A DNA stretch of 64,000 nt from Algicella marina (lineage in GTDB: Bacteria; Pseudomonadota; Alphaproteobacteria; Rhodobacterales; Rhodobacteraceae): contig NZ_CP046620.1 of NCBI RefSeq assembly GCF_009931615.1, forward strand, positions 2,185,501 through 2,249,500. The letters are read 5' to 3'. The notes beneath the pieces were generated by a model, which worked only from the letters and a program-made list of their open reading frames with translations, was not told the origin of the DNA and ran no database searches. Below are positions 40,198 through 56,783 of the stretch, one piece after another. Within the stretch, counting starts at the first letter, position 1, and each line of letters begins with the position of its first letter. A program made the position numbers and the translations under genes.

Positions 40198-41153
40198 GTG
40201 AGCACGGGCCAGGTTGTCAGCACCAGGTCAAAGCCCCGCAGCACCGCTTCCACCAGGAACAGCGTGAAATGCAGGAAGAGATAGAGGATGGAAAAGCCGA
40301 AGAAGCGCTTCTCCACCCGGAAACCGTCAAAATCGGCAGCCGCGTCATCCCGACGCCAGATCGTCCAGGCGCCCTTGAGGAAAAGAGCGTTCAGCACGAT
40401 GGCGGCCGCGAAATAGACAGGACCACCCACACTTGTGAAAGCCGGGGCGATCGCAACGGGTGCCAGCGCCAGAGAGTACCACAGGATCTGGTTGCGCGTC
40501 GCCCGCGTGCCAGCCACGACCGGCAGCATCGGCACAGCCGCATTGGTGTAATCAGCGTTGCGAAACAGCGCCAGTGCCCAGAAATGCGGGGGGGTCCACA
40601 TGAAGATCAGTCCGAACATCAGCACCGGCTCGATGGCAATGCCACCGGTGGCGACCGCCCAGCCGATCATTGGCGGGAACGCACCGGCAGCGCCGCCGAT
40701 GACGATATTCTGCGGAGTGAGCCGCTTCAGCCACATCGAATAGATCACCACGTAGAAGAAGATCGTGAACGCCAGCAGCCCGGCAGCCAGCGCATTGCTG
40801 AAAAGAAACAGCAGCATGACCGACAGGATCGACAGTGCCACGCCGATGCCCAGCGCCTCTTCGCCGGTCGTCCGGCCAGAGGGTATCGGCCTTTTGGCGG
40901 TTCGCTCCATCAGGCCGTCGATATCCCGATCCCACCACATGTTCAGCGCACCCGACGCGCCAGCGCCCACAGCGATGCAGATCAGCGACGCGAGGGCAAT
41001 CACCGGATGCGGCATCGCAGGTGCCGAGAGCAGGCCGATCAGCGACGTGAAGACCACAAGCCGCATGACCCGCGGCTTGAGCAACTCCACATAGTCGCGA
41101 AACTCCGGGTCTGCCGTCTGGGTGGACCAACCGGTTTCTGTCATGTCTCTCAC
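40194..41153 (-). CDS. ctaB: Protoheme IX farnesyltransferase (heme O synthase)
   Basis: This membrane enzyme adds a farnesyl group to heme B to make heme O, the precursor of heme A for the oxidase. The 319-residue UbiA-family protein has about eight to nine helices and the prenyl-diphosphate motif NMWWDRDIDGLMERTAKRP, with a second acidic loop around YSMWLKRLTPQN. It follows ctaC by 7 nt and overlaps the small membrane gene. Confidence 0.96.
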   Translation of the reverse strand: MRDMTETGWSTQTADPEFRDYVELLKPRVMRLVVFTSLIGLLSAPAMPHPVIALASLICIAVGAGASGALNMWWDRDIDGLMERTAKRPIPSGRTTGEEALGIGVALSILSVMLLFLFSNALAAGLLAFTIFFYVVIYSMWLKRLTPQNIVIGGAAGAFPPMIGWAVATGGIAIEPVLMFGLIFMWTPPHFWALALFRNADYTNAAVPMLPVVAGTRATRNQILWYSLALAPVAIAPAFTSVGGPVYFAAAIVLNALFLKGAWTIWRRDDAAADFDGFRVEKRFFGFSILYLFLHFTLFLVEAVLRGFDLVLTTWPVLT

Positions 41154-43689: not shown

Positions 43690-44835
43690 TCAGGCCACCC
43701 GCATACCAGCACTCCATACCGCGCGCACCGCCGCCGCACCGTCTATTTCGGAGAAGCGCAGAACATCGGCCCGCATGCCTTTGGCCAGCACACCGCGATC
43801 TGCCAGATGCACCGCCGACGCGGGCGTCGCGGTGACCGTGGCGATGCCCCGCGCCATGTCATCCCATAAGTGGCCAAGGCCGACTGCACCCATCAGCAGC
43901 GATGCCGGCACGTAATCCGAAGACAGGATATCCAGCCGGTCCATCTCCGCCAATTCCCGTGCCGCTACATTTCCCGAATGGGAGCCGCCACGGACAAGGT
44001 TCGGCGCTCCCATGATCGTGGCGATTCCCACGTCGTGGCAAGCCTCCGCTGCCTCAACGCTTGTTGGAAACTCGGCCAGCGTCACGCCGTGCGCGCGGCT
44101 GGTTTCCACCTGTCCTGCCGTGGTGTCGTCATGGCTGGCCAGCACCGCGCCGAACCGCGCCGCAGCAGCCACCGTCGCGGCCTCGTGCTTCTCGCCGAAC
44201 TGTTCCTGCAATCCGTAGAGAAACTGCACGTAGTCCTCAAACCCCTCCCGGCTCAATCCATGCTTGCCGCAGACGTAATCCTCAAATTTGGATATGTCGC
44301 GGAACTGCCGCTGCCCCGGCGTGTGATCCATCATCGACACCATCCGCACCCGGTCGGCTTCACCGAACTCATCCAGTTCTGCGATGAGCGACTCGGAACA
44401 GATTTCGGCCCGGAGGTGCAGGTGATGGCTGATCTTCAAACCGCCGGCTTCCAGCATGGCAAGAATCTCGTCCGCCATGCCGCGGGCATACTTTCCATAG
44501 CGCTTGCCCTTGTCGGACAAAATTGAACCGACCCTGATCGCATCGAAGACAGTGGTGATCCCCGTCCCCGCCAGTTCCCGGTCATGCGCCATGATCGCCG
44601 CCCGATGTGGCCAGTTGACCTTCGGGCGCGGCGCCATGTGCCGCTCCAGGTTATCCGTGTGCAGTTCGATCAGACCGGGACAGATGTAGTCACCACCGCA
44701 ATCCTCAGCGCCTGCTACCACCGCAGTGCCCTGGTCAATGTCTACGATCTTGCCATCGCGCAGCCGGATACTGCCGGCCACCACCTCTCCTTCCAGCACG
44801 AGGCGGGCATTGCAGAGGATCGATTCGAGGGTCAT
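43690..44835 (-). CDS. phnM: Alpha-D-ribose 1-methylphosphonate 5-triphosphate diphosphatase
   Basis: PhnM removes pyrophosphate from the ribose-phosphonate triphosphate made by PhnGHIL, giving the substrate of C-P lyase PhnJ. The 381-residue amidohydrolase shows PGLIELHTDNLERHMAPRPKV, SMMDHTPGQRQFRD, ASHDDTTAGQV, MGAPNLVRGGSHSGN and SSDYVPASLL, all as in E. coli PhnM. It overlaps phnN by 4 nt and is the last gene of the phnG operon. A second, divergent PhnM-like gene lies at 50.9 kb. Confidence 0.95.
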   Translation of the reverse strand: MTLESILCNARLVLEGEVVAGSIRLRDGKIVDIDQGTAVVAGAEDCGGDYICPGLIELHTDNLERHMAPRPKVNWPHRAAIMAHDRELAGTGITTVFDAIRVGSILSDKGKRYGKYARGMADEILAMLEAGGLKISHHLHLRAEICSESLIAELDEFGEADRVRMVSMMDHTPGQRQFRDISKFEDYVCGKHGLSREGFEDYVQFLYGLQEQFGEKHEAATVAAAARFGAVLASHDDTTAGQVETSRAHGVTLAEFPTSVEAAEACHDVGIATIMGAPNLVRGGSHSGNVAARELAEMDRLDILSSDYVPASLLMGAVGLGHLWDDMARGIATVTATPASAVHLADRGVLAKGMRADVLRFSEIDGAAAVRAVWSAGMRVA

Positions 44836-45389
44836 TTGGCACTCACATGTATCTGGTCGGGGTAAAGCAGGGACAGGACGCTCACGACCGTATCCGTCAA
44901 TGGTCCGGAATTGTCGATCCGGTGCACGTCAAGTCCGCCGGGCAATACGGCGGTGGAACGTTCGAGACGTCGCGAAATCTCATCGACACATTCCCGGCCC
45001 CGTAAGGCCAGACGCCGGGCGAGAACCTCGCGGGATGCAGACAGAGCGATGATCGTTACCTGCGAAAACCTTGCCTCCGCGCGTTGGAGGACACCACGCG
45101 ACAGGTTTGCCAACTGGTCGCGGCCGCCCGCAAGAGCGGCATCGACCGACACCGGAATCCCGTAGTGCAGACCGTGTGCCTGCCAGCAGAGCGCGAAGGC
45201 ACCGGCATCGCGCCGCCGCAGAAACTCCGGCTCGCTCACCCCCTCGAAATCCTCTCCTCCGGCAGTTTCCGGGCGGGTAATCACCCGCCGCACCAGAGAC
45301 AACTGCGGGGCACGGGCCGCCAGCGCCGTCAGAACACTGTCCTTGCCGACACCGGAAGGGCCCACCACCGCGATGAACCGGCCGCTCAC
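44832..45389 (-). CDS. phnN: Ribose 1,5-bisphosphate phosphokinase
   Basis: PhnN phosphorylates ribose 1,5-bisphosphate to PRPP, the last step of the C-P lyase pathway. The 185-residue guanylate-kinase-like protein has P-loop VVGPSGVGKDS, RRVITRPETAGGEDFEGVSE and the late RGRECVDEISRRLER. It overlaps phnL and phnM by 4 nt each. PhnP, which would make its substrate, is not in the window. Confidence 0.92.
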   Translation of the reverse strand: MSGRFIAVVGPSGVGKDSVLTALAARAPQLSLVRRVITRPETAGGEDFEGVSEPEFLRRRDAGAFALCWQAHGLHYGIPVSVDAALAGGRDQLANLSRGVLQRAEARFSQVTIIALSASREVLARRLALRGRECVDEISRRLERSTAVLPGGLDVHRIDNSGPLTDTVVSVLSLLYPDQIHVSAK

Positions 45390-46069
45390 GCCGCCACCCG
45401 CGGGGTAAAGGCCGTCACGTCGACTTCCCGCTCGGCGACCCGCATCCGCGCCTCGGCATCATGAAAGATACCGATGATCGCCGCCCCACGGGCCTTTGCG
45501 CCCGCGATCATTTCCAGCACGATCTCGCGATTGACCGGGTCGAGGCTCGCCGTCGGCTCATCAAGCAGCAGCGCCGGGTATTCATGGGCGAAGCCTCGCG
45601 CGATGTTCACCCGCTGCTGTTCGCCGCCGGAAAACGTCGTCGGAGACAACAACCACAGCCGCTCTGGTATGTTCAGACGCGCCAGCAGTTCCGCCGCCCG
45701 TGCTTCGGCAACCGCCCTTTCCGTCCCGACTGCCAGCAGCGGTTCGGCAACCACCGCCAAGGTCGGAACCCTCGGCACCACCCTCAGGAACTGCGATACG
45801 AACCCTAGCGTGTGCCGCCGCAACTCTATGATGTCGCGCGGCGCGGCCTGCGCCACGTCGACACCTCCGACCATGATCCGCCCGGCCGCGGCAAGGTAGT
45901 TCCCGTAGATCATCCGCATCAGCGTCGATTTTCCGGCACCGGACGCGCCAACCAGCGCCACGCATTCGCCGCGTGCCACGGCCAGTGTCGCGCCCTCCAT
46001 CACCGGAATTCGCGCCGCGCCCTGATTATGCAAAACAAAGGACTTGGAAACGTTTTCGATACTTATCAT
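45386..46069 (-). CDS. phnL: Phosphonate C-P lyase complex ATPase PhnL
   Basis: PhnL is an ABC-type ATPase of the C-P lyase complex, needed with PhnG, H and I to attach the phosphonate to ATP-derived ribose. The 227-residue protein opens ISIENVSKSFVLHNQGAARIPVMEGATL and has Walker A GASGAGKST, signature FSGGEQQRVNIARG and Walker B LLLDEPTASLDP. The ATG at 46069 comes 4 nt after the phnK stop; a longer reading into phnK is not needed. Confidence 0.93.
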   Translation of the reverse strand: MISIENVSKSFVLHNQGAARIPVMEGATLAVARGECVALVGASGAGKSTLMRMIYGNYLAAAGRIMVGGVDVAQAAPRDIIELRRHTLGFVSQFLRVVPRVPTLAVVAEPLLAVGTERAVAEARAAELLARLNIPERLWLLSPTTFSGGEQQRVNIARGFAHEYPALLLDEPTASLDPVNREIVLEMIAGAKARGAAIIGIFHDAEARMRVAEREVDVTAFTPRVAA

Positions 46070-46073
46070 CTGC

Positions 46074-46844
46074 TCACACCTGCAGGACAGAAGAGACGAG
46101 TAGCTGGGTATAGGCATGCTGCGGATCGTCCAGCACCTGGTCGGTCAGCCCTGCCTCGACGACATGGCCGTCCTTCATCACCATCAGCCGGTCCGCCAGC
46201 AGGCGCACTACCGCCAGATCATGGGTGACGATAATTGCAGACAACCCCATGTCCCGCACGAGTCCGCGCAACAGGTCCAGCAATCGCGCCTGCACGGAGA
46301 CGTCCAGTCCGCCAGTCGGTTCATCCATGAACACCAGGCGCGGCCCAGTGACGAGATTGCGCGCGATCTGCAATCGCTGCTGCATACCGCCGGAAAACGC
46401 GCTTGGCCGGTCATCGACCCGCTCTCCGGCAATCTCCACACGTGCCAGCCAGTCGACCGCCGCCTCGCGGATAGCACCGTAATTGCGGGCGCCGACGGCC
46501 ATCAGCCGTTCGCCGACGTTGCCGCCCGCGCTGACGTTCATCCGCAGGCCGTCACGAGCGTGCTGATGCACGAAAGCCCAATCCGTCCTACCCAGCATCC
46601 GCCGTTCCGGTTCGGCCATGGTCACCGTATCGCGTTGACTGCCGTCGCGCATGGCGAACCGTACTGCCCCGGAATCCGGCGGCAGATGCCCGGCCATGCA
46701 ATTCAGCAAGGTGGATTTGCCGGAACCGCTCTCCCCGACAATCCCCAGCACCTCTCCGGGAAAGAGCTGGAAGGAGACTTCGGCGCAACCTACCCGCGTG
46801 CCGTAGAATTTCGACAGCCTGTCGACTTCGAGCAATGGCGTCAT
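46074..46844 (-). CDS. phnK: Phosphonate C-P lyase complex ATPase PhnK
   Basis: PhnK is the second ABC-type ATPase of the complex and docks on PhnJ. The 256-residue protein has LLEVDRLSKFYG, Walker A GESGSGKST, the signature FSGGMQQRLQIARN and Walker B LVFMDEPTGGLD, with VHQHARDGLRMNVSAGGNVGERL typical of PhnK. ATG 46844 overlaps the stop of the small ORF upstream by 4 nt (ATGA). Confidence 0.94.
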   Translation of the reverse strand: MTPLLEVDRLSKFYGTRVGCAEVSFQLFPGEVLGIVGESGSGKSTLLNCMAGHLPPDSGAVRFAMRDGSQRDTVTMAEPERRMLGRTDWAFVHQHARDGLRMNVSAGGNVGERLMAVGARNYGAIREAAVDWLARVEIAGERVDDRPSAFSGGMQQRLQIARNLVTGPRLVFMDEPTGGLDVSVQARLLDLLRGLVRDMGLSAIIVTHDLAVVRLLADRLMVMKDGHVVEAGLTDQVLDDPQHAYTQLLVSSVLQV

Positions 46845-47050
46845 TTCACCTTCTCCCCGATCGCACCGCCAACGCCGGTCACCGCGCCTTCGATCATCAT
46901 CATCGGCGCGAAAATGACGTTCATGCCCTCCAAGCTCGCGGTATCGGTGACACTGGCGATGCCGCCGCCGGGAATTCCCTCCGTGTCGAGGCGCTTCAGG
47001 CCATAGAGCCCGATGTAGACCAACAGCAGAACCATGATCACCCGTTTCAA
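46841..47050 (-). CDS. Small membrane-anchored ORF coupled between phnJ and phnK
   Basis: A 69-residue product if started at TTG 47050, which overlaps the phnJ stop and has GAAGAAGG just upstream; an ATG at 47035 gives 64 residues. It has one N-terminal hydrophobic segment (VIMVLLLVYIGLYGLKRL) and then a Gly/Met-rich tail (GIPGGGIASVTDTASLEG; FAPMMMIEGAVTGVGGAIGEKV). Overlaps with phnJ at the start and with phnK at the stop (ATGA) mean that ribosomes pass through it. I do not recognise a family. It may tether the C-P lyase core to the membrane; this is a guess from position. Confidence 0.65.
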   Translation of the reverse strand: MKRVIMVLLLVYIGLYGLKRLDTEGIPGGGIASVTDTASLEGMNVIFAPMMMIEGAVTGVGGAIGEKVK

Positions 47051-47886
47051 CCTTCTTCCCCCTGATCGCCGCGCCTGCCGGCACAGTAATCGGTGTCGGA
47101 GCACATGAACATCCGCCCGCCATCATCATCGACGATCAACTCGTCAAGGTAGCTGTCCTCCGCCCCGCAAAGGCCACAGGCTGCCTCGGCCTTGCTCGCC
47201 TCGAACGGATGGTCCTCAAAATCGAGAGAGACCACCTTGCACCACGGCGGAAGCGCATAGATCCGCTGTTCCCGACCCGCGCCGAACAACTGGATGGCAG
47301 CCATCTCCAGCTTCGGATTGTCGAATTTCGGAATCGGCGATGGGTCCATGACGTATCGGCCCTCCACCTTCACCGGATAGGCATAGGCGGTCGCGATCGC
47401 GCCGTGCCGACTGATGTCTTCGTAGAGCTTCACATGCATCAGCCCGTATTCCTCGAGGCTGTGCATCTTCCGCGTCTCGACTTCGGAGGGTTCGAGGAAC
47501 CGCAGCGGCTCCGGGATCGGCACCTGGTATACGAGAATCTGATCCTCCCGCAGCGTCTGCTCCGGGATCCGATGTCTCGTCTGGATCACGCTGGCCTCAG
47601 CAGTTGCCTCCGTCGTGGCAACCCCGGCCGTCCGCTCGAAGAAGCGCCGGATGGAAACGGCATTGGTCGTATCATCCGCCCCCTGATCGATTACCTTGAA
47701 CGTATCCTCGGGAACCAGCACCGCAGCGCTCACCTGCACACCACCGGTGCCCCAGCCATAGGGCATCGGCATCTCGCGGCTGGCGAAGGGTACCTGATAG
47801 CCAGGAATGGCCAGTCCCTTCAGGATGGCCCGGCGGATCATCCGCTTGGTCTGCTCGTCGAGATAGGCGAAATTGTATTCGTTCAT
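47047..47886 (-). CDS. phnJ: Alpha-D-ribose 1-methylphosphonate 5-phosphate C-P lyase (radical SAM)
   Basis: PhnJ cuts the carbon-phosphorus bond, releasing the alkane (methane from methylphosphonate) and ribose cyclic phosphate. The 279-residue protein shows NFAYLDEQTKRMIRRAILKG, PMPYGWGTGGVQVSA and the C-terminal Fe-S cysteines C237, C240, C262 and C268 in CGLCGAEDSYL and CSDTDYC, the unusual radical-SAM arrangement of PhnJ. It follows phnI by 36 nt. Confidence 0.97.
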   Translation of the reverse strand: MNEYNFAYLDEQTKRMIRRAILKGLAIPGYQVPFASREMPMPYGWGTGGVQVSAAVLVPEDTFKVIDQGADDTTNAVSIRRFFERTAGVATTEATAEASVIQTRHRIPEQTLREDQILVYQVPIPEPLRFLEPSEVETRKMHSLEEYGLMHVKLYEDISRHGAIATAYAYPVKVEGRYVMDPSPIPKFDNPKLEMAAIQLFGAGREQRIYALPPWCKVVSLDFEDHPFEASKAEAACGLCGAEDSYLDELIVDDDGGRMFMCSDTDYCAGRRGDQGEEG

Positions 47887-47922: not shown

Positions 47923-49008
47923 TCATTCCGCGGCCTCGGCCACAGCCGCCCCGGCCTCGCGCCGCAACCTGCGGATCAATTCCAATTCACTCTGGAAATC
48001 CACGTAATGCGGCAGCTTGATGTGCTCCAGAAACCCCGTCGCCTGAATGTTGTCGGCATGGTAGAGAACGAATTCCGCGTCCTGCGCCGGAGCGCCGGTG
48101 TCGTCTTCGCCCAGTTCCTCCCAGCGCAGTGCCCGATCCACCAGCGCCATGGATATCGCCTTGCGTTCCGTCTGCCCGAAAACGAGCCCATAGCCCCGGG
48201 TAAACTGCGGCGGCTCCGTCTTCGAACCCTTGAATTGGTTGACGGTCTCGCACTCCGTCAGCGTGATCTCCCCGATTTCGATGGCGAACCCAAGTTCCGG
48301 CACCTCCATCTCGACCTCCACCGTACCGATCCGAAGCTCTGCCACGAAGGCATGGTTTCGCGCATAACCGCGCTGCGTCGAATAGGCCATGCCTAGGATG
48401 AATCCCTCATCCCCTCGGGTGAGGGATTGCAGCCGCAGAGCCCGCTCCGCCGGAAGCTCGAGCGGCTCGCGCGTCAGGTCAGGTGGTGCCTCCGCGCCCT
48501 CCGGCTCGTCCTGGACAAGGCCCTCCCGATCCAGGAACGACATGATATGCGGTGTCTGAATTCGGTCCGAGGTGGCCATTGCCGCCTCCGGCACCTCCCC
48601 GTCGGCCGCCAGTTTGAAATCGAGCAATCGGTGAGTGTAATCGAAGGTCGGTCCCAGCACCTGCCCGCCTGGGGCGTCCTTGAACGTCGCTGAGATCCGC
48701 CGGTCGCAGGCCATTCGGTCTGTCTCCACCGGTTCGGAACCGCCGAAGCGCGGCAGCGTCGTACGGTAGGCCCGGATCAGAAAAATCGCCTCGATCAGAT
48801 CGCCCCTAGACTGCTTGATCGCCAGCGCCGCCAGATCGGGATCGTAGAGCGATCCCTCGGCCATGACCCGGTTTACGGCCAACGCCAGTTGCTCACGTAT
48901 CTGCGCTACCGACAGTTCCGCGATGCTGTTGTCGCCACGCCGCTCCTCGGCCAGCCAGGCGTGGGCATTGTCGATGGCCTTTTCGCCACCTTTGACTGCT
49001 ACATACAT
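47923..49008 (-). CDS. phnI: Phosphonate C-P lyase complex subunit PhnI
   Basis: PhnI is a nucleosidase-like subunit that, with PhnGHL, displaces adenine from ATP by the phosphonate. The 361-residue protein matches the family from MYVAVKGGEKAIDNAHAWL through GFILGMAYSTQRGYARNHAFVAELRIG to ETVNQFKGSKTEPPQFTRGYGLVFGQTERKAISMALVDRAL and GFLEHIKLPHYVDFQSEL. It starts directly after the phnH stop. Confidence 0.96.
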   Translation of the reverse strand: MYVAVKGGEKAIDNAHAWLAEERRGDNSIAELSVAQIREQLALAVNRVMAEGSLYDPDLAALAIKQSRGDLIEAIFLIRAYRTTLPRFGGSEPVETDRMACDRRISATFKDAPGGQVLGPTFDYTHRLLDFKLAADGEVPEAAMATSDRIQTPHIMSFLDREGLVQDEPEGAEAPPDLTREPLELPAERALRLQSLTRGDEGFILGMAYSTQRGYARNHAFVAELRIGTVEVEMEVPELGFAIEIGEITLTECETVNQFKGSKTEPPQFTRGYGLVFGQTERKAISMALVDRALRWEELGEDDTGAPAQDAEFVLYHADNIQATGFLEHIKLPHYVDFQSELELIRRLRREAGAAVAEAAE

Positions 49009-49569
49009 TCACGACACCTTCGTCGTACGTGGCAGCCCGGCCAGCCGGTTGCCGCAGGTGAACAGATGGTCAAGGCCCAACGGGAACAACCGCGCGTTCG
49101 ACTGGAAGGCCTCGACCTCGGGCAGGGAGAGGGCCGTGGTGTCCCGGATGCCGGGTCCGCGCAGGGTAGCGCCCTCCGGCATCAACCGCTCCAACTCGAC
49201 GATCAGGGTCGCCGAGCGGTCCGGGTACGCTGGCGTGCCCACAGTGAAGCCGCGGCTTTTCAGTTCCGTCCAATGCCCGACCGCAAACATCGCCGTCTCC
49301 ACAGATGAAAAAGGGGCGCCGGTATGGAACGTGATCCAGCTTCGCACCGCCTCGTTGTTCCTCGATGGCGCCAGATACACAGGCGTTTCCGGATCGCACA
49401 GCGTCAGAAGAACCACACCGGCCGCAACCGATAGCGGCGCTGGCGGCACCGCACCTGCCAGTTCGGAGATTACTCCGGGCCTGGCCATCGCGTTCATCAC
49501 CGCGCGAAAGGCATGAGCGGCATCAACGGGCGCATTGCTGAAACCTCCCTCGAGCGCTGCGCTTTCCAT
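49009..49569 (-). CDS. phnH: Phosphonate C-P lyase complex subunit PhnH
   Basis: PhnH is a structural subunit of the C-P lyase core. The 186-residue protein matches the family: GGFSNAPVDAAHAFRAVMNAMARPG at the start, LTLCDPETPVYLAPSRNNEAVRSWITFHTGAPF in the middle and FPLGLDHLFTCGNRLAGLPRTTKV at the end. Its ATG overlaps the phnG stop by 1 nt. Confidence 0.95.
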   Translation of the reverse strand: MESAALEGGFSNAPVDAAHAFRAVMNAMARPGVISELAGAVPPAPLSVAAGVVLLTLCDPETPVYLAPSRNNEAVRSWITFHTGAPFSSVETAMFAVGHWTELKSRGFTVGTPAYPDRSATLIVELERLMPEGATLRGPGIRDTTALSLPEVEAFQSNARLFPLGLDHLFTCGNRLAGLPRTTKVS

Positions 49570-50024
49570 CAGTCCTCTCCTCGTACCAGTGTAAAGAAGT
49601 CTACCTTGGTGGCAGCTGCCTTCGCCGCTCGATGGTCAGCCTTCTTGCGGAGTTCGCCACGCAGCGGCTCCAGCACCATCGTCTCCAGCCGCGCCGCCGC
49701 ATCTGTCTGCATCAGCGCATCCACCAAGGCCGCTATCAGTGCCTTGTCTCTGTCCCGGCCCTGAACATACCCATGGCCGACAGCTCCCTCCTCCAGCCGC
49801 ACCGAGGCGCGTGTCACCGTCATTTCCCCAAGATTGAATGGCGCACCCACGGCTCCGGCACGGCCCCGAACCATGACTCCGCCGATCTCGGGAGCACGCA
49901 GGACGCTGTGTTCCGGCACATCACCATAATGCGCCCACGCCTGCTTCACCGCGACTGCAGGGGCTTTCGCCAACAGGCTCATCCACGCCTTGCGGGCCGC
50001 GTTCGGGTCCGGTGTGCCGTCCAT
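49569..50024 (-). CDS. phnG: Phosphonate C-P lyase complex subunit PhnG
   Basis: PhnG is the first subunit of the C-P lyase operon. At 151 residues from ATG 50024 it has the length of E. coli PhnG (about 150). Recognisable parts are ARKAWMSLLAKA, VLRAPEIGGVMVRGRAGAVGAPFNLGEMTVTRASVRL and VGHGYVQGRDRDKALIAALVDAL. Earlier in-frame ATGs exist at 50048 and 50069 but lie inside the proposed operator. The promoter region carries PhnF-type palindromes and a possible PHO box. Confidence 0.94.
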   Translation of the reverse strand: MDGTPDPNAARKAWMSLLAKAPAVAVKQAWAHYGDVPEHSVLRAPEIGGVMVRGRAGAVGAPFNLGEMTVTRASVRLEEGAVGHGYVQGRDRDKALIAALVDALMQTDAAARLETMVLEPLRGELRKKADHRAAKAAATKVDFFTLVRGED

Positions 50025-50043
50025 CTTTCGTCTTTCGAATCTG

Positions 50044-50083
50044 GACATCTTCGCAAGATGTCTATACAACTAGACAAATATTA
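50044..50083 (-). promoter_or_regulatory. PhnF-type operators and -10 region of the phnG operon
   Basis: Two overlapping palindromes: GACATCTT (50044-50051) with AAGATGTC (50055-50062), and TGTCTA (50059-50064) with TAGACA (50071-50076). On the minus strand the core reads TGTATAGACA, the kind of site bound by HutC-type GntR regulators. A TAATAT (50078-50083, minus) with TTGCGG (50101-50106) 17 nt away could be the promoter, placing the operators over the start of transcription. Confidence 0.5.
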
Positions 50084-50136: not shown

Positions 50137-50871
50137 ATGCCCCGCACTCCGATCTGGCAATCCATAGCCACGACACTCACGCATGAAATCGCCGGCGGTC
50201 ACTATCCGCCCGGCGCCCGAATGCCGACGGAGGCGGCTCTATCCTCCCGCTTCGGTGTCAATCGTCACACCGTCCGCCGCGCACTCAAGCGCATGTCGGA
50301 GGACGGCCTCGTCCACAGCCGCCGCGGCGCAGGTGTCTTCGTCGCCATGAAGCCGATGGATTATGCCATCGGGCGCCGCACCCGGTTTCACCAGAACCTC
50401 GCTGCTGCGGGACAGACACCGGGCAAAAAGATCCTGCATCTCGAAACCCGTCAGTCCGATACGCGAGAGGCGGAAGCGCTGGCGCTGCCAGCAGGCGCGG
50501 ACGTGCATGCCTACGAAGGCCTGTCGCTGGCTGATGGTCAGCCTATCGCCGTCTCCCGCAGCATCTTTCCAGCCGCGCCCTTTCCCGGTTTTCTCGACGA
50601 TCTTGCCGAACTGGGCTCGATCACAGCCGCCCTCGCCCGCCACGGCATTGCGGACTACACCCGTGCCTCAACCCGCCTCACCGCCAAGGCGGCAACCGCG
50701 ACGCAGGCCCTGCATCTACGCATCGCTGAGAACGCGCCGCTCCTGCAGGCAGTCGCCATCAACATCGACACCACGGGCATGCCAATTGAATACGGCCATA
50801 CCTGGTTCGCGGGCGAAAGGGTCACACTCACGCTGTCAGATCCGGCCTTGCAGGATGCGCAAATGTCATGA
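50137..50871 (+). CDS. phnF: GntR/HutC-family regulator of phosphonate metabolism
   Basis: PhnF is expected to repress the phn operon in the absence of its ligand. The 244-residue protein has a GntR winged helix (IATTLTHEIAGGHYPPGARMPTEAALSSRFGVNRHTVRRALKRMSEDGLVHSRRGAGVFV) and a UTRA ligand domain (RTRFHQNLAAAGQTPGKKIL; AYEGLSLADGQPIAVSRSIFPA; TGMPIEYGHTWFAGERVTL). It is divergent from phnG with the operator between them, and is followed 49 nt later by the second phnM-like gene. Confidence 0.92.
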   Translation: MPRTPIWQSIATTLTHEIAGGHYPPGARMPTEAALSSRFGVNRHTVRRALKRMSEDGLVHSRRGAGVFVAMKPMDYAIGRRTRFHQNLAAAGQTPGKKILHLETRQSDTREAEALALPAGADVHAYEGLSLADGQPIAVSRSIFPAAPFPGFLDDLAELGSITAALARHGIADYTRASTRLTAKAATATQALHLRIAENAPLLQAVAINIDTTGMPIEYGHTWFAGERVTLTLSDPALQDAQMS

Positions 50872-50920: not shown

Positions 50921-52105
50921 ATGAACACCGGCCAAGATTCGCTCTGCTTGCAGGGCGGCAAGATCCTGCGTGGCGGCGCCCTTGAGGATGGCACGCTCGG
51001 CATCGCCGGCGCGCTTCTGGCTGACGCTGGCAATGCACCGGTGCTGGAAACCACCGGCTATCTCGTCCTGCCGGGGATAATCGACCTGCATGGAGACGCC
51101 TTCGAACATCACATGGCCCCGCGTCCTACCGCCCCGCTGCCATTTGCCATGGGCCTCGTCGGGGTCGACAGCGACGCCGCGGCAAACGGCGTCACCACCG
51201 CATGGATGGCCCAAAGCTGGAGCTGGGAAGGCGGCGCTCGTGGTCCGGATTATGCCGTTGGTCTGCTGGAGGCGCTGGAGGCCTATCGCCCGCAGGCTGG
51301 CACCGACCTGCGCATTCAGATCCGCTGCGAAACCCATACGATGGAAACCGAGGGCCGACTGATTGATGCAATCCGCCGTTTCCGTCTTGGGTATGTCGTC
51401 TTCAACAACCATCTCGAGGAAGCGCTGGAAATGGGCCGCCGCGATCTGGCCAGCCTGACAGGTTGGGCCTCGCGGACCGGGCGGACACCGCAGCAGCACC
51501 TCGATCTGGTCTTGTCGCTCAAGGCGAGGGATGCGGAGGCTTCCGCCTATCTCGCCCGCCTTTCCGCCGTATTTGCGCAAGAGGGCGTGCGGTCCGGCTC
51601 CCACGACGATGCCGACACCGCAACGCGTACCCGCTTCGCCGACCTTGGCGCCCGGATTTGCGAGTTCCCGACAGGCGTGGCCGCCGCTCGCGCCGCCCAT
51701 ACAGCAGGCGATCCGGTGTTGATGGGTGCGCCGAACATCGTCCGTGGCGGGTCGCAATCAGGTAACATCGCCGCGGCCGACCTGGTGGCAGAGGGACTCT
51801 GTGACGCCCTGGTGTCGGATTATCATTACCCCACTCTCGCCCGTGCTGCCTTCCGCCTCGCGGATGACGGGCTCCTGTCACTCGCCGATGCATGGGCACT
51901 GATCTCCTGCAATCCTGCACGGATCATGGCCATGCCCGACAGGGGCGAACTGGCCGACGGCCGGCGCGCTGACCTCGTCATCATCGATGAGTACAGCCGC
52001 CGCATCGAAGGCACAATGGTTGCCGGACGATGGACCCACCTCTCCGGAAATCTTGCCGCTCGCCTTGCTCGCTCACCACTCCGCGCCCGCGTGGCTGCGG
52101 AGTAA
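50921..52105 (+). CDS. Second, divergent PhnM-like amidohydrolase
   Basis: The 394-residue protein is clearly PhnM-related: LPGIIDLHGDAFEHHMAPRP, GSHDDADTATRTRFADLGARICEFPTGVAAARAAH, MGAPNIVRGGSQSGNIAAADLVAEGLCDALVSDYHYPTLARAA. It differs at key places from the phnM at 43.7 kb: HTDNLE becomes HGDAFE, and the MDHTPGQRQF block is replaced by FNNHLEEALEMG. A different or additional substrate in the phosphonate pathway is likely. ATG 50921 follows a CAGGAAG site. It probably shares a transcript with phnF. It may be an isofunctional second PhnM or a paralogue with a new role. Confidence 0.82.
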   Translation: MNTGQDSLCLQGGKILRGGALEDGTLGIAGALLADAGNAPVLETTGYLVLPGIIDLHGDAFEHHMAPRPTAPLPFAMGLVGVDSDAAANGVTTAWMAQSWSWEGGARGPDYAVGLLEALEAYRPQAGTDLRIQIRCETHTMETEGRLIDAIRRFRLGYVVFNNHLEEALEMGRRDLASLTGWASRTGRTPQQHLDLVLSLKARDAEASAYLARLSAVFAQEGVRSGSHDDADTATRTRFADLGARICEFPTGVAAARAAHTAGDPVLMGAPNIVRGGSQSGNIAAADLVAEGLCDALVSDYHYPTLARAAFRLADDGLLSLADAWALISCNPARIMAMPDRGELADGRRADLVIIDEYSRRIEGTMVAGRWTHLSGNLAARLARSPLRARVAAE

Positions 52106-52113
52106 CACCTTCT

Positions 52114-52731
52114 TCAACCGCCGTATTTCTCCAGAAACGCCTCGGCATTCAGACTGCGAAAATCGTCCAGCGCCGCTCGCAGCTCGGCATAGCTCCAGTC
52201 CCACCACGCCAGCGCCTGCATCCGCTCTGCCACATCCGGCCGGTAACGCTCCCGCAGCGGCACCGCCGGGATTCCGGCAACGATCATGTAAGGCGCGACA
52301 TCTTTGGTCACGATCGCCCCTCCGGCCACCACGGCGCCATCGCCGATTGTCACCTCCGGGCGCACCTGCGCTCCGTGCCCGAGCCAGGTGTCATGGCCGA
52401 TCCGCGTCCGGCGGCTCCGGCGATGCGCAAACCAATCTTCGTCATGCTCGGCGTCATCAAAATAATCGGCCGAACGATAGTGAAAGTGGTGCAGACTCGC
52501 CTTGTCCATCGGATGATCGGTCGCACCGATGCGCGCATAACTGGCGATATTGGAAAACTTGCCGATCTGTGCGTTCGCGATGTCGGCGAAACGGTCGCAA
52601 TAGGAATAGTCGCCGATCACCGAATGCGCCACCCTGCTGCCGCGCCCGATCTCCACGAAGCGCCCCATCCGGGCATCGACTATCTCGCAATCGGGATGGA
52701 TAAATGGCGTCTCGGCCTTCAGTCTTGCCAC
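52114..52731 (-). CDS. Phosphonate-cluster hexapeptide-repeat acetyltransferase
   Basis: The 205-residue protein has left-handed beta-helix hexapeptide repeats (VEIGRGSRVAHSVIGDYSYC; IGKFSNIASYARIGATDHP; IGHDTWLGHGAQVRPEVTIGDGAVVAGGAIVTKDVAPYMIVAGIPA) with the active-site type His in HDTWLGHGA. It matches the transferase hexapeptide family associated with phosphonate clusters. It probably acetylates an aminophosphonate or a pathway intermediate, comparable in purpose to PhnO; the substrate is not known. It follows phnE2 by 10 nt and ends 8 nt from the convergent phnM-like gene. Confidence 0.85.
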   Translation of the reverse strand: MARLKAETPFIHPDCEIVDARMGRFVEIGRGSRVAHSVIGDYSYCDRFADIANAQIGKFSNIASYARIGATDHPMDKASLHHFHYRSADYFDDAEHDEDWFAHRRSRRTRIGHDTWLGHGAQVRPEVTIGDGAVVAGGAIVTKDVAPYMIVAGIPAVPLRERYRPDVAERMQALAWWDWSYAELRAALDDFRSLNAEAFLEKYGG

Positions 52732-52741
52732 GATTATTCCT

Positions 52742-54034
52742 TCAGGTTCCGGATCCCTTGATAAGCTTGCGCCGCAACCAGCCGGAGAACGTGTCCATCA
52801 GCATCACCATCAGGATGATCAGGACGATGAAATAACTCACCTCCTCCCAATCCTTCTGGGTAATGATCGCCTGCGTCAACAACAGGCCGATGCCACCACC
52901 GGTAATGGCCCCGATGATGGTCGCGGAGCGGGTATTGGATTCAAGGTAGTAGAGGATCTGGGAGAGCAACACCGGCGTGATTTGCGGGATCACCCCAAAT
53001 CGATATCGCTGCAACGGTTTGGCCCCGGTGGAGGCAATGCCTTCGATCTCCTTGCCATCAATGTTTTCCAGCGCTTCGGAGAACATCTTGCCGAAAGAGC
53101 CGGTATCCGTCAGCAGGATCGCCAGAGATCCGGTCAGCGGCCCCGGCCCGAAGGCGCGAGACAGAACGATGGTCCAGATCAGCCCATCCACACCGCGCAG
53201 GAAGTCGAACAAGCGCCGCGCCACGAACCGCAGTGCCCCCAGTGGCGCAAAGTTCTTTGCCGCCAGAAAACCCAACGGCAGCGCGATCATCGCCGCCCCA
53301 AACGTACCGAGAAAGGCCATCAGCACCGTTTCGACCAGCGCCCAGGCGACCTCCCCGTGCCGCCACATCTTGTTGCCCCAGAAATCACCCCAGATCGCAC
53401 CGGCTTCCCCGGCGGCTGCCCGCGCCACCAACTCCCCAGGCCCCATGCCATAATAGGGGCTGTCGAGGGTAAAGAAGAACAACTCCCACCCGAATGAGTA
53501 CCGGAACACCTCTGATCGATTGCGGGTGATCGTCACCCGTCCTGCATTGGTTGTCACCATCAGGCGATTCCGCGATGCGCTGATCCAGTCCGGCACCTCG
53601 CCCTCCGGCAGAACAGCGTTGACGCCGCTGCGCCCCGGTTCCGTCCTGATCACGCCGTAACCCGGCACCTCATACGTCACCTGGTCGCCGAACGTCACCA
53701 CATGCCCGCGGCCAAGGTCGATCACCGTCCGCTCGCCCAGCGTCACCCACTCCGGCGCCGTGCCTTCGGCATATGCGCCCTTGCGCTCTCCCTCGATGGC
53801 AATCTCCACTGCGCCACTACGGTTGTCCTGCGTCACATGCGTCTTGTAGCTGTAGGTGTCGGAAACCAGCGTTCGCGCATTCTCCACGCTCACGCGCTCC
53901 GAAAGACCGGGAATGTCGAAGGCAAAGAAAACGTACGAGAAATAGGTCAGCAGCAGCACCGGAACAGCCAGTGCCGCTAGCCGCTTTCGCGCAAACATCG
54001 CGTTCGCCTGCCCGTGCAGCACCATCGCGGTCAT
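52742..54034 (-). CDS. phnE2: Phosphonate ABC transporter permease PhnE (second copy)
   Basis: The 430-residue permease has one N-terminal helix (LAALAVPVLLLTYFSYVFFAF), then a soluble stretch of about 150 residues, probably periplasmic, then a BPD_transp_1 domain (VETVLMAFLGTFGAAMIALPLGFLAAKNFAPLG; RRLFDFLRGVDGLIWTIVLSRAFGPGPLTGSLAI; EIEGIASTGAKPLQRYRFGVIPQITPVLLSQILYYLESNTRSATIIG with the EAA-like loop). The two PhnE proteins presumably form a heterodimer. It overlaps phnE1 by 4 nt. Confidence 0.93.
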   Translation of the reverse strand: MTAMVLHGQANAMFARKRLAALAVPVLLLTYFSYVFFAFDIPGLSERVSVENARTLVSDTYSYKTHVTQDNRSGAVEIAIEGERKGAYAEGTAPEWVTLGERTVIDLGRGHVVTFGDQVTYEVPGYGVIRTEPGRSGVNAVLPEGEVPDWISASRNRLMVTTNAGRVTITRNRSEVFRYSFGWELFFFTLDSPYYGMGPGELVARAAAGEAGAIWGDFWGNKMWRHGEVAWALVETVLMAFLGTFGAAMIALPLGFLAAKNFAPLGALRFVARRLFDFLRGVDGLIWTIVLSRAFGPGPLTGSLAILLTDTGSFGKMFSEALENIDGKEIEGIASTGAKPLQRYRFGVIPQITPVLLSQILYYLESNTRSATIIGAITGGGIGLLLTQAIITQKDWEEVSYFIVLIILMVMLMDTFSGWLRRKLIKGSGT

Positions 54035-54915
54035 ACCCGTGCCTCCCCGCGCATCGCGCCATGCGTCAACCGGTTGCGGAAATGGCTCGAGATCTGGTCG
54101 ACAATCACAATTGTCATGAACAACAGCAGGAATATTGCCGCGGCCTCATCGAACTTGCCCTGCCCCCAACTCATTGTGTTGCGCAAGTCGTAGCCGATGC
54201 CGCCTGCACCGACAAAGCCAAGGATGGCGGAAGCGCGGATATTTATCTCGAACCGCAGCAACGCATAGCTCAGGTAATTCGGCGCCACCTGCGGCACCAC
54301 TCCCAGCATCATTCGCTGCACCCAGCCCGCACCGACCGATTCCAGCCCTTCCACCGGCTTCAGCGAGGCGTTCTCGTTCACCTCCGAAAAAAGCTTGCCG
54401 AGAGCCCCGACCGTATGCAGCGCTATTGCGATCATCGCCGGCACCGGGCCGCCGCCCAGCAGGAAGATCAGCACCAGCGCCACCACGATCTCGGGCACGG
54501 CCCGCAGAATGTCCAGCACCCGTCGCAACGGCATGATTGCCCAGGGCACCGGCGCCAGACCGCGTGTCACCAGCATTGATATGCAGAGCGCGAACAGAGC
54601 CCCCAGCAGCGTCGAGGCGCCCGCGATGTTCACCGTTTCGATAAGTGAGGGCAGGTATTTCACAAAATACCCGGGCAACAGATGCGCACGTTCCACCGCC
54701 TCGCCAACCACGTCGGCCATGAAATCGAAGGTGTTCGGCAGCCCATCGATGAACCCGCCGGCGTTGCGGGCATTCGCGGTTTGAAAACCTGCGACCATCA
54801 GCACGATGAACACCAGCAGCAGGATAGTGTTCAGCAGCCGTTTCGCCCGTACCTGGGCCAGATATTCATCGTGAATGTTGCGCATGTCTCGCGCGTCCGC
54901 CGAAATCTCTGCCAA
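54031..54915 (-). CDS. phnE1: Phosphonate ABC transporter permease PhnE (first copy)
   Basis: The 294-residue permease has about six helices with VNIAGASTLLGALFALCISMLVTRGLAPVPW, LRRVLDILRAVPEIVVALVLIFLLGGGPVPAMIAIALHTVGALGKLFSEVNENASLKPVEGLESVGAGWVQRMMLGVVPQVAPNYLSYALLRFEINIRASAILGFVGAGGIG, a textbook PhnE/PtxC core. It lies 77 nt after phnD, with a hairpin in the gap, and overlaps phnE2. Confidence 0.94.
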   Translation of the reverse strand: MAEISADARDMRNIHDEYLAQVRAKRLLNTILLLVFIVLMVAGFQTANARNAGGFIDGLPNTFDFMADVVGEAVERAHLLPGYFVKYLPSLIETVNIAGASTLLGALFALCISMLVTRGLAPVPWAIMPLRRVLDILRAVPEIVVALVLIFLLGGGPVPAMIAIALHTVGALGKLFSEVNENASLKPVEGLESVGAGWVQRMMLGVVPQVAPNYLSYALLRFEINIRASAILGFVGAGGIGYDLRNTMSWGQGKFDEAAAIFLLLFMTIVIVDQISSHFRNRLTHGAMRGEARV

Positions 54916-54992: not shown

Positions 54993-55904
54993 TCAGTTGG
55001 ATTTCGCCTTGCGGGCTTCCACGATCGAAACGTAGGCGTCATGGGTGATCGGATCGAACCCGAGGCTTTCACCGGCCGCAACGCCATAGGCGCAGTCGGC
55101 ATCGGCTTCGTGCAGGCCGTCAACCAGTTCGACCATCGTTGCCTTCACGTCCGCCGGCAGGGATTTGCTCAGCACCACCGGGCCTTCCGGGATCGGCTTG
55201 GAGCGCCAGATTTCCACGAGATCGTTCATATCGACGAGGCCGGCATCCACAGCCTTGCGCAGTGCGCCGGAATTGTATCCGTCTTCCCATTCGCCCTGAC
55301 CGTCGGCCCAGGTGACGCCGCCGTCGATATCACCGTTGTTCACGGCCACGATCGTCTGCTCATGGCCACCTGTGAACTTCACTTCGCCGAAGTAGTCGCC
55401 GGATTCCATCGTGATCTCTTCGCCTTCCTGAGGGATCTCGATGGACGGGATCAGATAGCCGGAGGTCGAGTTCGGATCGCCGAAGCCGAAAATCTTGCCC
55501 TGCATGCCGTCGAGCGAGGTGATGCCGCTGTCCTTACGCGCAAAGCCGATGGAATGATAACCGTAGGATCCATCGAGATTGATCTTCACCAGCACGGGCT
55601 CCACGGCTTCCGGATCCTGCATATACACGGCCGCGTAGGCGGAAGCGCCCAGCCAAGCCATGTCCAGCGTTCCGCCCAGCAGTCCCTGGATCACCCCGTT
55701 GTAATCGGCAGGGGCGAAAAGTTTTGTCGGCACGCCCAGCGCTTCCTCGGTGTAGGCCCGCAGGCATTCGTTGGAGTTCAGGCGGTCCTGAGCGTTCTCG
55801 CCGCCCAGAAGACCGATGCGGAATTCGGTGATTTCATGGCCGTCGGCATAGGCCACGCCCGTCAGCATCGTCGTCGCAAGCGCAGCAGCAAGCAGATTTT
55901 TCAT
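54993..55904 (-). CDS. phnD: Phosphonate ABC transporter, substrate-binding protein
   Basis: PhnD binds phosphonates in the periplasm. The 303-residue precursor has a signal peptide (LLAAALATTMLTGVAYA) and the family motifs FRIGLLGGENAQDRLNSNECLRAY, MAWLGASAYAAVYM, FGFGDPNSTSGYLIPS and GGHEQTIVAVNNGDIDGGVTWADG, which contain the residues that hold the phosphonate group. ATG 55904 directly precedes the signal peptide. It follows phnC by 60 nt. Confidence 0.95.
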   Translation of the reverse strand: MKNLLAAALATTMLTGVAYADGHEITEFRIGLLGGENAQDRLNSNECLRAYTEEALGVPTKLFAPADYNGVIQGLLGGTLDMAWLGASAYAAVYMQDPEAVEPVLVKINLDGSYGYHSIGFARKDSGITSLDGMQGKIFGFGDPNSTSGYLIPSIEIPQEGEEITMESGDYFGEVKFTGGHEQTIVAVNNGDIDGGVTWADGQGEWEDGYNSGALRKAVDAGLVDMNDLVEIWRSKPIPEGPVVLSKSLPADVKATMVELVDGLHEADADCAYGVAAGESLGFDPITHDAYVSIVEARKAKSN

Positions 55905-55964
55905 CGGTTTCGTCTCACTTTGGTTAAGCAGCCCCTTCGGAGCCAGTGGGTTGAACAAGTCACC

Positions 55965-56783
55965 TCAAACGCCAACGGCGGCCCTTTCCCTGGCCGCCGC
56001 TGCATCAAGAGTTTCGATCTCCGTGGAAGTCGCCGCTTCGGAGAAGCTGTCATCCGCGCCGTAAATGTCGCGCGCCGTGCCCGTTGTCAGTTGCTCCGGC
56101 GTTCCGTCGAAGACGACACGGCCATGCAGCATGCCAATTACCCGGTCGCAATAGCGGCGCGCGGTATCAAGGGTGTGCAGGTTGGCGATGACAGTGCGTC
56201 CGTCTTCCTCATGAATGCGGCGCAGCGATTGCATCACCACCTGCGCGTTCATCGGGTCGAGAGATGCGATCGGCTCGTCAGCCAGAATGATCTTCGGATC
56301 CTGCATCAGCGCCCGCGCGATCGCCACCCGCTGCTGCTGCCCGCCAGAGAGGGCCTCCGCCCGTTTCGGCGCGTGTTCGGCTATGCCCAGCCGATCCAGA
56401 ATGTCGATGGCCCGGTGGATGTCCGCTTCCGGAAACAGGCTGAACATCGTCGCCAACGTAGAGCGCCGGTTCAAAGTACCGTGCAGCACATTGGAAACCA
56501 CGTCCATGCGCGGCACGAGGTTGAACTGCTGGAAGATCATCGCGCATTGCGCCTGCCAGCCCCGTTTCTCGGCACCTTTCAGCCGCGTCACGTCGCGCCC
56601 CTCGAACAGGATCTCGCCGGAGCTGGCATCCGTCAGCCGGTTCATCATCCGCAGCAGTGTCGATTTGCCGGCACCGGATCGACCGATGATACCGATCATC
56701 ATCGGCTTTGCCACCGCAACAGAAACGGCATCGACAGCGATATTCGCCCCGAAGGACTTCGTTAGGTTCCGGATTTCCAGCAT
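55965..56783 (-). CDS. phnC: Phosphonate ABC transporter, ATP-binding protein
   Basis: PhnC powers phosphonate uptake. The 272-residue ATPase opens [23 protein letters not shown] and has Walker [11 protein letters not shown]-loop [17 protein letters not shown], signature [14 protein letters not shown] and Walker [14 protein letters not shown]. It heads phnC-phnD-phnE1-phnE2-hexapeptide gene. ATG 56783 follows AGGGA at 8 nt. PHO-box repeats lie 35 nt upstream. Confidence 0.95.

Follow-up and report, generated by a model that had tools for sequence, protein, structure and literature searches.

Carbon–phosphorus (C-P) lyase mobilises the phosphorus of phosphonates and releases methane from methylphosphonate. 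A "second phnM-like hydrolase (phnM1)" has already been reported in C-P lyase clusters of Rhodobacteraceae (Martinez 2013, PMC3840354; Sosa 2017, PMC5649143). In fosmid B3_TF_MPn_2, phnM1 is described as a metal-dependent hydrolase gene within a cluster whose description includes a 2H phosphoesterase (RcsF), a hexapeptide transferase, and two phnE genes and shows no phnP (PMC3840354), and another phnM1 cluster of the same kind was presented for Roseovarius HI0049 (PMC5649143). Where they discuss phnM1, its authors leave its role open (PMC3840354). According to Table 2 of that report, the phnM1 fosmid used methyl-, ethyl-, 2-aminoethyl-, and 3-aminopropylphosphonate as well as 3-phosphonopropionate, while phosphonoacetate and phosphite were used by the other two clusters and not by this one; since no substrate in the table was unique to the phnM1 fosmid relative to the other two clusters, phnM1 brought no gain on this 12-source panel. 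Sulfitobacter operons that are otherwise alike are depicted without phnM1, and the Sulfitobacter isolate HI0054, which lacks it, degraded 87–93% of methyl-, ethyl-, and 2-hydroxyethylphosphonate (PMC5649143), so that the canonical PhnM is enough for these three compounds. Elsewhere, a lower co-occurrence of phnM was ascribed to second copies outside the operon (PMC9381506), and a DUF1045 protein has been proposed as the cyclic phosphodiesterase replacing PhnP (PMC3840354, PMC8235418). Our search of the open-licence literature turned up no functional work on the second PhnM type. The second phnM-like gene and the proposed DUF1045 stand-in are thus already in print, the former having been noticed before and never explained; what is new here is a lost loop, rather than an HGDA motif, as the diagnostic change, a single clade for the second type, its tracking of PhnJ, its link to a second transporter, and genomes in which it is the only PhnM homologue.

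The window, that is, the whole stretch of 64,000 nucleotides that was analysed, corresponds to C1:2185501-2249500 of the single-contig 3.99 Mb genome of Algicella marina (G000) and contains a complete C-P lyase cluster in which phnG-H-I-J-K-L-N-M lie on the minus strand, phnF and the second phnM-like gene (M2) on the plus strand, and a hexapeptide transferase gene together with phnE2-E1-D-C again on the minus strand (Table 1). This layout is much like that of B3_TF_MPn_2 (PMC3840354), except that the window genome has its 2H gene outside the cluster, and the equation of phnM1 with M2 rests on this cluster layout. The two PhnM-family enzymes named in a preliminary description of this DNA were both recovered, and the genome holds a third PhnM-type gene at G000:C1:3901793-3902917 on the minus strand (L064; 423 bits; motif HGDGFE), whose product is 46% identical to M2 and groups in the tree with relatives, one of them from a genome without PhnJ (G154). 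An N-formylglutamate amidohydrolase-like gene lies upstream of this third copy, and the 19 kb examined around it gave no match to any other phn gene. A Pho-box scan of the window returned five matches against 4.0 expected, the nearest at 41138 and 45326 and none near phnF or M2.

Table 1. Features of the C-P lyase cluster, with positions counted from the first letter of the window.
Feature	Position	Strand	Evidence and remarks
Canonical phnM	43690..44835	-	HTDNLE, DHTPGQRQ; NF011984 522 bits, TIGR02318 423.8
phnN	44832..45389	-	TIGR02322 192 bits
phnL	45386..46117	-	ORF bounds, family match from residue 17; TIGR02324 310.7 bits
phnK	46074..46829	-	Translated stretch, true start uncertain; TIGR02323 384.6 bits
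phnJ, C-P bond-cleaving subunit	47047..47886	-	PF06007 468 bits in G000; annotated E. coli phnJ matches at the DNA level
phnI	47923..49008	-	tblastn match coincides with annotated PhnI of Marinobacter pMAQU01; no NCBIfam match over cut-off
phnH	49009..49569	-	TIGR03292 151.7 bits
phnG	49569..50048	-	TIGR03293 167 bits
phnF, GntR-type regulator	50137..50871	+	Ends 49 bp before M2 on the same strand; TIGR02325 222 bits
phnM2 (M2)	50921..52105	+	PhnM-like amidohydrolase, HGDAFE, without HTPGQxQ loop
Hexapeptide-repeat transferase of C-P lyase clusters	52114..52731	-	Convergent with M2; TIGR03308 294 bits
phnE2, permease	52742..54034	-	tblastn match coincides with annotated phnE of Haematobacter plasmid
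phnE1, permease	54031..54915	-	tblastn match coincides with annotated phnE of Haematobacter plasmid
phnD, substrate-binding protein	54993..55958	-	tblastn matches in phnD slot of relatives' clusters
phnC, ATPase	55965..56783	-	tblastn match coincides with annotated phnC

The M2 gene is an intact open reading frame whose 394-aa product matches 11 PhnM-type NCBIfam models. The best of these, NF011987 (6.8e-120), is passed with 400.5 bits against a cut-off of 253, although this subfamily model is loose, many canonical PhnMs exceeding its cut-off too, and its name rests on annotation. The PhnM equivalog TIGR02318 gave 265.6 bits, under the curated cut-off of 390.55, compared with 423.8 for the canonical window copy, with which M2 shares 31% identity over 368 columns. 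The amidohydrolase superfamily families PF01979 and PF07969 matched at 34.3 and 30.8 bits, both above their cut-offs, and the predicted models of M2 and the canonical PhnM (pLDDT 93.8 and 90.1) both found amidohydrolases as fold matches, e.g., dihydroorotase, isoaspartyl dipeptidase, and GlcNAc-6-phosphate deacetylase, so the predicted fold of M2 is that of the amidohydrolase superfamily. A sequence search of the PDB gave no PhnM structure and weak matches only, mostly to amidohydrolase-type enzymes. M2 retains the residues that vary little or not at all among canonical PhnMs, namely H57/D59, R135, E137, H164, SHDD 227-230, EFP 248-250, GxPN 269-272, R275, S278, and SD 299-300. Among them, the presumed metal ligands H57, D59, E137, H164, H228, and D300, to which metal binding may be assigned by analogy with the superfamily, are conserved in 67/67 M2 rows of the alignment. 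Several positions found only in canonical PhnM are lost, and W102, E103, R107, Y303, and W325 are found only in M2. That M2 could be a degenerate copy was ruled out, since it is an intact gene with conserved catalytic positions; it also forms a separate clade.

The motif alignment comprised 119 rows (67 M2, 46 canonical, and six other operon-type PhnMs; the copies from L124 and L125 were left out). As the preliminary description had stated, the window M2 keeps SHDD, GAPNIVRGGS, and SDY, reads HGDA for HTDN, and has lost MDHTPGQRQF, the position being occupied by NNHLEEALEM. The corresponding loop, [DEN]H[TS]PGQxQ, occurs in 43/46 canonical rows, the other three reading HTPGSRQ, HTPGDRQ, and HTPGHRQ, and in 5/6 of the other operon PhnMs, compared with none of the 67 M2 rows. 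By this alignment, the loss of HTPGQxQ is what sets M2 apart, and its conservation suggests that the loop is a defining feature of PhnM. The change from HTDN to HGDA is not diagnostic, since PhnMs occupying the PhnM position of the Thermus pVV8 and Haematobacter C-P lyase operons, as well as that of a second cluster in genome G022 (L113), carry HGD too; in these, unlike in M2, the loop is retained as DHTPGQGQ, and the tree places them on its canonical side. Near-duplicate rows were omitted from both trees, the first retaining 113 of 146 rows and the final one 100, the rows dropped from the latter including L124, a long branch, and L125, whose copy is split. M2 (56 rows) is separated from all other rows by a branch whose SH-aLRT support is 98% (quick tree, unrooted and without bootstrap), so the phylogeny of the two types that had been proposed as a check places M2 in one clade separate from canonical PhnM. 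The HGD row from L127 stood on the canonical side in both trees. In sum, M2 has in common with canonical PhnM (TIGR02318; E. coli phnM) the fold family, the H-x-D, SHDD, EFP, GxPN, and SDY motifs, and the pathway neighbourhood, and differs from it in having HGD[AG][FY]E, no HTPGQxQ, a score below the TIGR02318 cut-off, and its own clade. On the Arthrobacter plasmid p1, the PhnM of a C-P lyase operon (L166, 16619-17800) reads HLDNLT, lacks the HTPGQ loop, and sits on a very long branch.

M2 was called in the 289 genomes of an alphaproteobacterial sample by profile score (at least 343 bits, the next lower match being 318), and because score was the only means of finding it, weaker members could be missed. 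It occurs in 27/289 genomes, with HGD[AG][FY]E read in 26 of them; the copy in G260 (L125) is split between reading frames, which may reflect gene breakage or faulty assembly. PhnJ is present in 26/27 genomes with M2 and in 22/262 without it (Fisher p 9e-23, relatedness ignored), the single PhnJ-less genome with M2 being the complete, one-contig G154. Canonical PhnM is kept in 25/26 genomes with M2 and PhnJ, and M2 therefore rarely replaces it. In the first locus set, phnF directly precedes M2 in 36/50 loci, with the transferase gene next in 31 of the 36. The other 14 hold unlinked M2 relatives, and although PhnJ is found in 11 of those 14 genomes, this is weak evidence because Rhodobacterales often carry C-P lyase; it is absent from the genomes of L053, L057, and L059. 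For the orphan M2 loci L102, L109, L110, L116, L118, L119, L121, L123, and L127, no shared partner was recognised, a minority of the neighbours being family-scanned.

Regarding transport, a second PhnCDE-like system, SBPx-Cx-Ex, adjoins M2 in 15/34 loci (15 genomes) outside the first set of 50, and SBPx was found in 0/12 loci that carry canonical phnM but not M2. In the scanned examples, SBPx scored 103.7, 106.4, and 89.1 bits, just under the TIGR01098 cut-off of 112.05, the Cx ATPase scored 249.5, just below the PhnC cut-off of 266.1, and the Ex permease passed the PhnE cut-off. A methyltransferase belongs to the same module in 8/15 loci, both of the two scanned being of class I type. SBPx is absent from the window and from all 50 loci of the first set, and a specialised importer does not apply in the window organism, since M2 there shares the ordinary transporter. 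SBPx reached an identity of at least 42% in nine plasmid records, all of which were examined, and in five of them M2 lies nearby (Marinobacter, Haematobacter, Pseudosulfitobacter, Peteryoungia, and Sinorhizobium sojae). The Microvirga plasmid pairs SBPx with an HTDHLE PhnM and that of Arthrobacter with an HLDNLT PhnM, the transporter stands alone in the stretch examined of Sinorhizobium BG8, and the Allorhizobium copy is fragmentary; the pairing of M2 with SBPx is thus common but not obligate, as plasmid SBPx also accompanies other PhnM types. Genome G022 has an ordinary C-P lyase cluster (L112) and a second, divergent one (L113), whose PhnJ is 49% identical to that of the window and which carries an HGD-type PhnM, M2, the SBPx module, and a methyltransferase.

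Canonical PhnM was detected by score in 47/48 PhnJ genomes of the class sample, the remaining one, G165, having M2 only. The family of G165 (f37) comprised 17 genomes, and an order-level search around G165 gave the same 17. PhnJ is present in eight of them and PhnM relatives in the same eight: G291, G297, and G302 have both PhnM types and both importers, G299 and G300 have canonical PhnM only, G299 (L164) with phnCDE and no SBPx, and G165, G290, and G293 have M2 only. The M2-only clusters retain phnF, phnG-L, DUF1045, phnN, and the SBPx module (on another contig in G293), and phnCDE was not found in their examined flanks. Because G165, G290, and G293 form one clade, their M2-only state probably reflects one event. 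Between G290 and G293, dN/dS was about 0.05 for M2 and 0.06 for phnJ. Independently of this clade, in the Marinobacter nauticus plasmid pMAQU01, M2 is the sole PhnM homologue of an operon arranged as SBPx-Cx-Ex-M2-phnGHIJKL-MFS-phnN-phnP; pMAQU02 of the same organism bears a second operon with another PhnM.

The preliminary description had also reported that phnP is not seen, and the genome-wide search bears this out: nothing in the 3.99 Mb exceeded the TIGR03307 cut-off, the best match (49.3 bits against 272.25) being an ORF located right after a TatD gene. PhnP was likewise over cut-off in none of the 289 genomes. A DUF1045 2H phosphoesterase (PF06299) is encoded at C1:3505256-3505723 on the plus strand (L096; 183.1 bits against a cut-off of 24.3). 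DUF1045 occurs in 59/289 genomes and PhnJ in 48/289, and DUF1045 is present in 47/48 PhnJ genomes, G161 being the exception, compared with 12/241 others (Fisher p 1.5e-41, relatedness ignored). Since no genome passes the PhnP cut-off and DUF1045, the proposed stand-in, accompanies PhnJ so regularly, the absence of phnP is ordinary in this class. Where one contig spans both genes, DUF1045 lies between phnM and phnN in 32/33 linked loci; L017, like the window, has none there, and the window genome's own copy is over 1 Mb away from the phn cluster, unlike in most relatives. DUF1045 is at most about 1.3 kb away from M2 in L029, L035, L039, L103, and L109, and M2 stands directly upstream of phnN in L106 and L107; both neighbours belong to the ribosyl-phosphate end of the pathway.

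Given its tracking of PhnJ, its neighbourhoods, and the M2-only cases, we prefer a reading in which M2 performs a PhnM-type step along an alternative route of intake to C-P lyase, and we put at about 0.5 the probability that it is a diphosphatase isozyme of the PhnM type that supplies C-P lyase with another class of phosphonates. As a second PhnM type and a metal-dependent enzyme of the amidohydrolase superfamily, M2 would, like PhnM, remove pyrophosphate from ribose 1-phosphonate 5-triphosphate, allowing PhnJ to cut the C–P bond, and its reshaped pocket would suit a phosphonate class poorly handled by PhnCDE and PhnM. In many genomes, it would travel with its own PhnCDE-like importer; in the window lineage, it would have been kept behind phnF to share the single PhnCDE1E2 importer, and the missing PhnP step would fall to the unlinked DUF1045 2H phosphoesterase. 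The earlier suggestion that the paralogue handles another intermediate or substrate class survives in part: the separate clade and the second-transporter links fit another substrate class, whereas there is no phnP gap for M2 to fill. A bolder version, which we regard as tentative, is that the front ends of C-P lyase are interchangeable, M2 and SBPx-Cx-Ex, often with the methyltransferase, forming a self-contained input module for an unrecognised phosphonate class that could wholly take the place of PhnCDE and canonical PhnM and whose intermediate needs no HTPGQxQ loop.

The loss of the loop makes a reaction of another kind a serious alternative for M2, since with HTPGQxQ in none of the M2 rows the enzyme may not bind the triphosphate at all. 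M2 could instead catalyse another C-P lyase-coupled hydrolysis, readying an imported phosphonate before PhnI (e.g., by ester or amide opening) or clearing a ribosyl by-product, with an unrelated phosphatase taking the PhnM step where M2 is alone. The loss of canonical-only positions, the M2-only residues, the separate importer with its frequent methyltransferase, and the nearly constant presence of canonical PhnM would all fit, but M2 is the sole PhnM homologue in three related genomes and in the pMAQU01 operon, none of which revealed an alternative hydrolase. We consider this reading somewhat unlikely. The same co-occurrence with canonical PhnM, in the same cluster and mostly right behind phnF, would also be expected of plain redundancy, M2 being an isozyme that acts on the same substrate and persists for reasons of dosage or regulation. 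We consider this improbable in view of the 31% identity and the clade-wide loop change; moreover, relatives without phnM1 are reported to degrade methylphosphonate well (PMC5649143), yet purifying selection on M2 is strong elsewhere.

Still less probable is that the function of M2 lies in ribosyl-phosphate metabolism apart from C-P lyase, its place in phn clusters being accidental. The M2 relatives in PhnJ-less genomes, namely G154 and those of L053, L057, and L059, point that way; however, all but one of the genomes with M2 are PhnJ-positive, the G154 copy groups with the third-copy lineage of the window genome rather than with the phn-linked one, and the copies from L053, L057, and L059, all three outside the final tree, carry HGDGFE like that third-copy lineage. 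Hardly credible is a substitution for PhnP, with M2 opening the 1,2-cyclic phosphate. It would account for the lack of phnP in the window and, above cut-off, in the genome, but DUF1045 is present in this genome as in nearly all those with PhnJ, Sulfitobacter operons shown without phnM1 work (PMC5649143), and the Marinobacter pMAQU01 operon contains phnP alongside M2; this role was therefore rejected. The gene neighbourhoods suggest that M2 serves an alternative phosphonate supply line and does not replace PhnP. Should M2 mark a second route of intake, the C-P lyases of sea and soil would accept a wider range of substrates than PhnCDE and PhnM imply, and M2 with its transporter would offer a direct way of tracing the substrates still missing. 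Two enzymes are also mixed wherever metagenome counts take phnM as their marker.

Finally, canonical phnM was also found in genomes without any PhnJ match. It stands together with phnF and DUF1045 in G164 (L181) and G262 (L182), with DUF1045 in G040 (L130) and G247 (L146), and beside phnCDE-like genes in G125 (L183). These loci suggest either a role of PhnM and the 2H phosphoesterase outside C-P lyase or relics.
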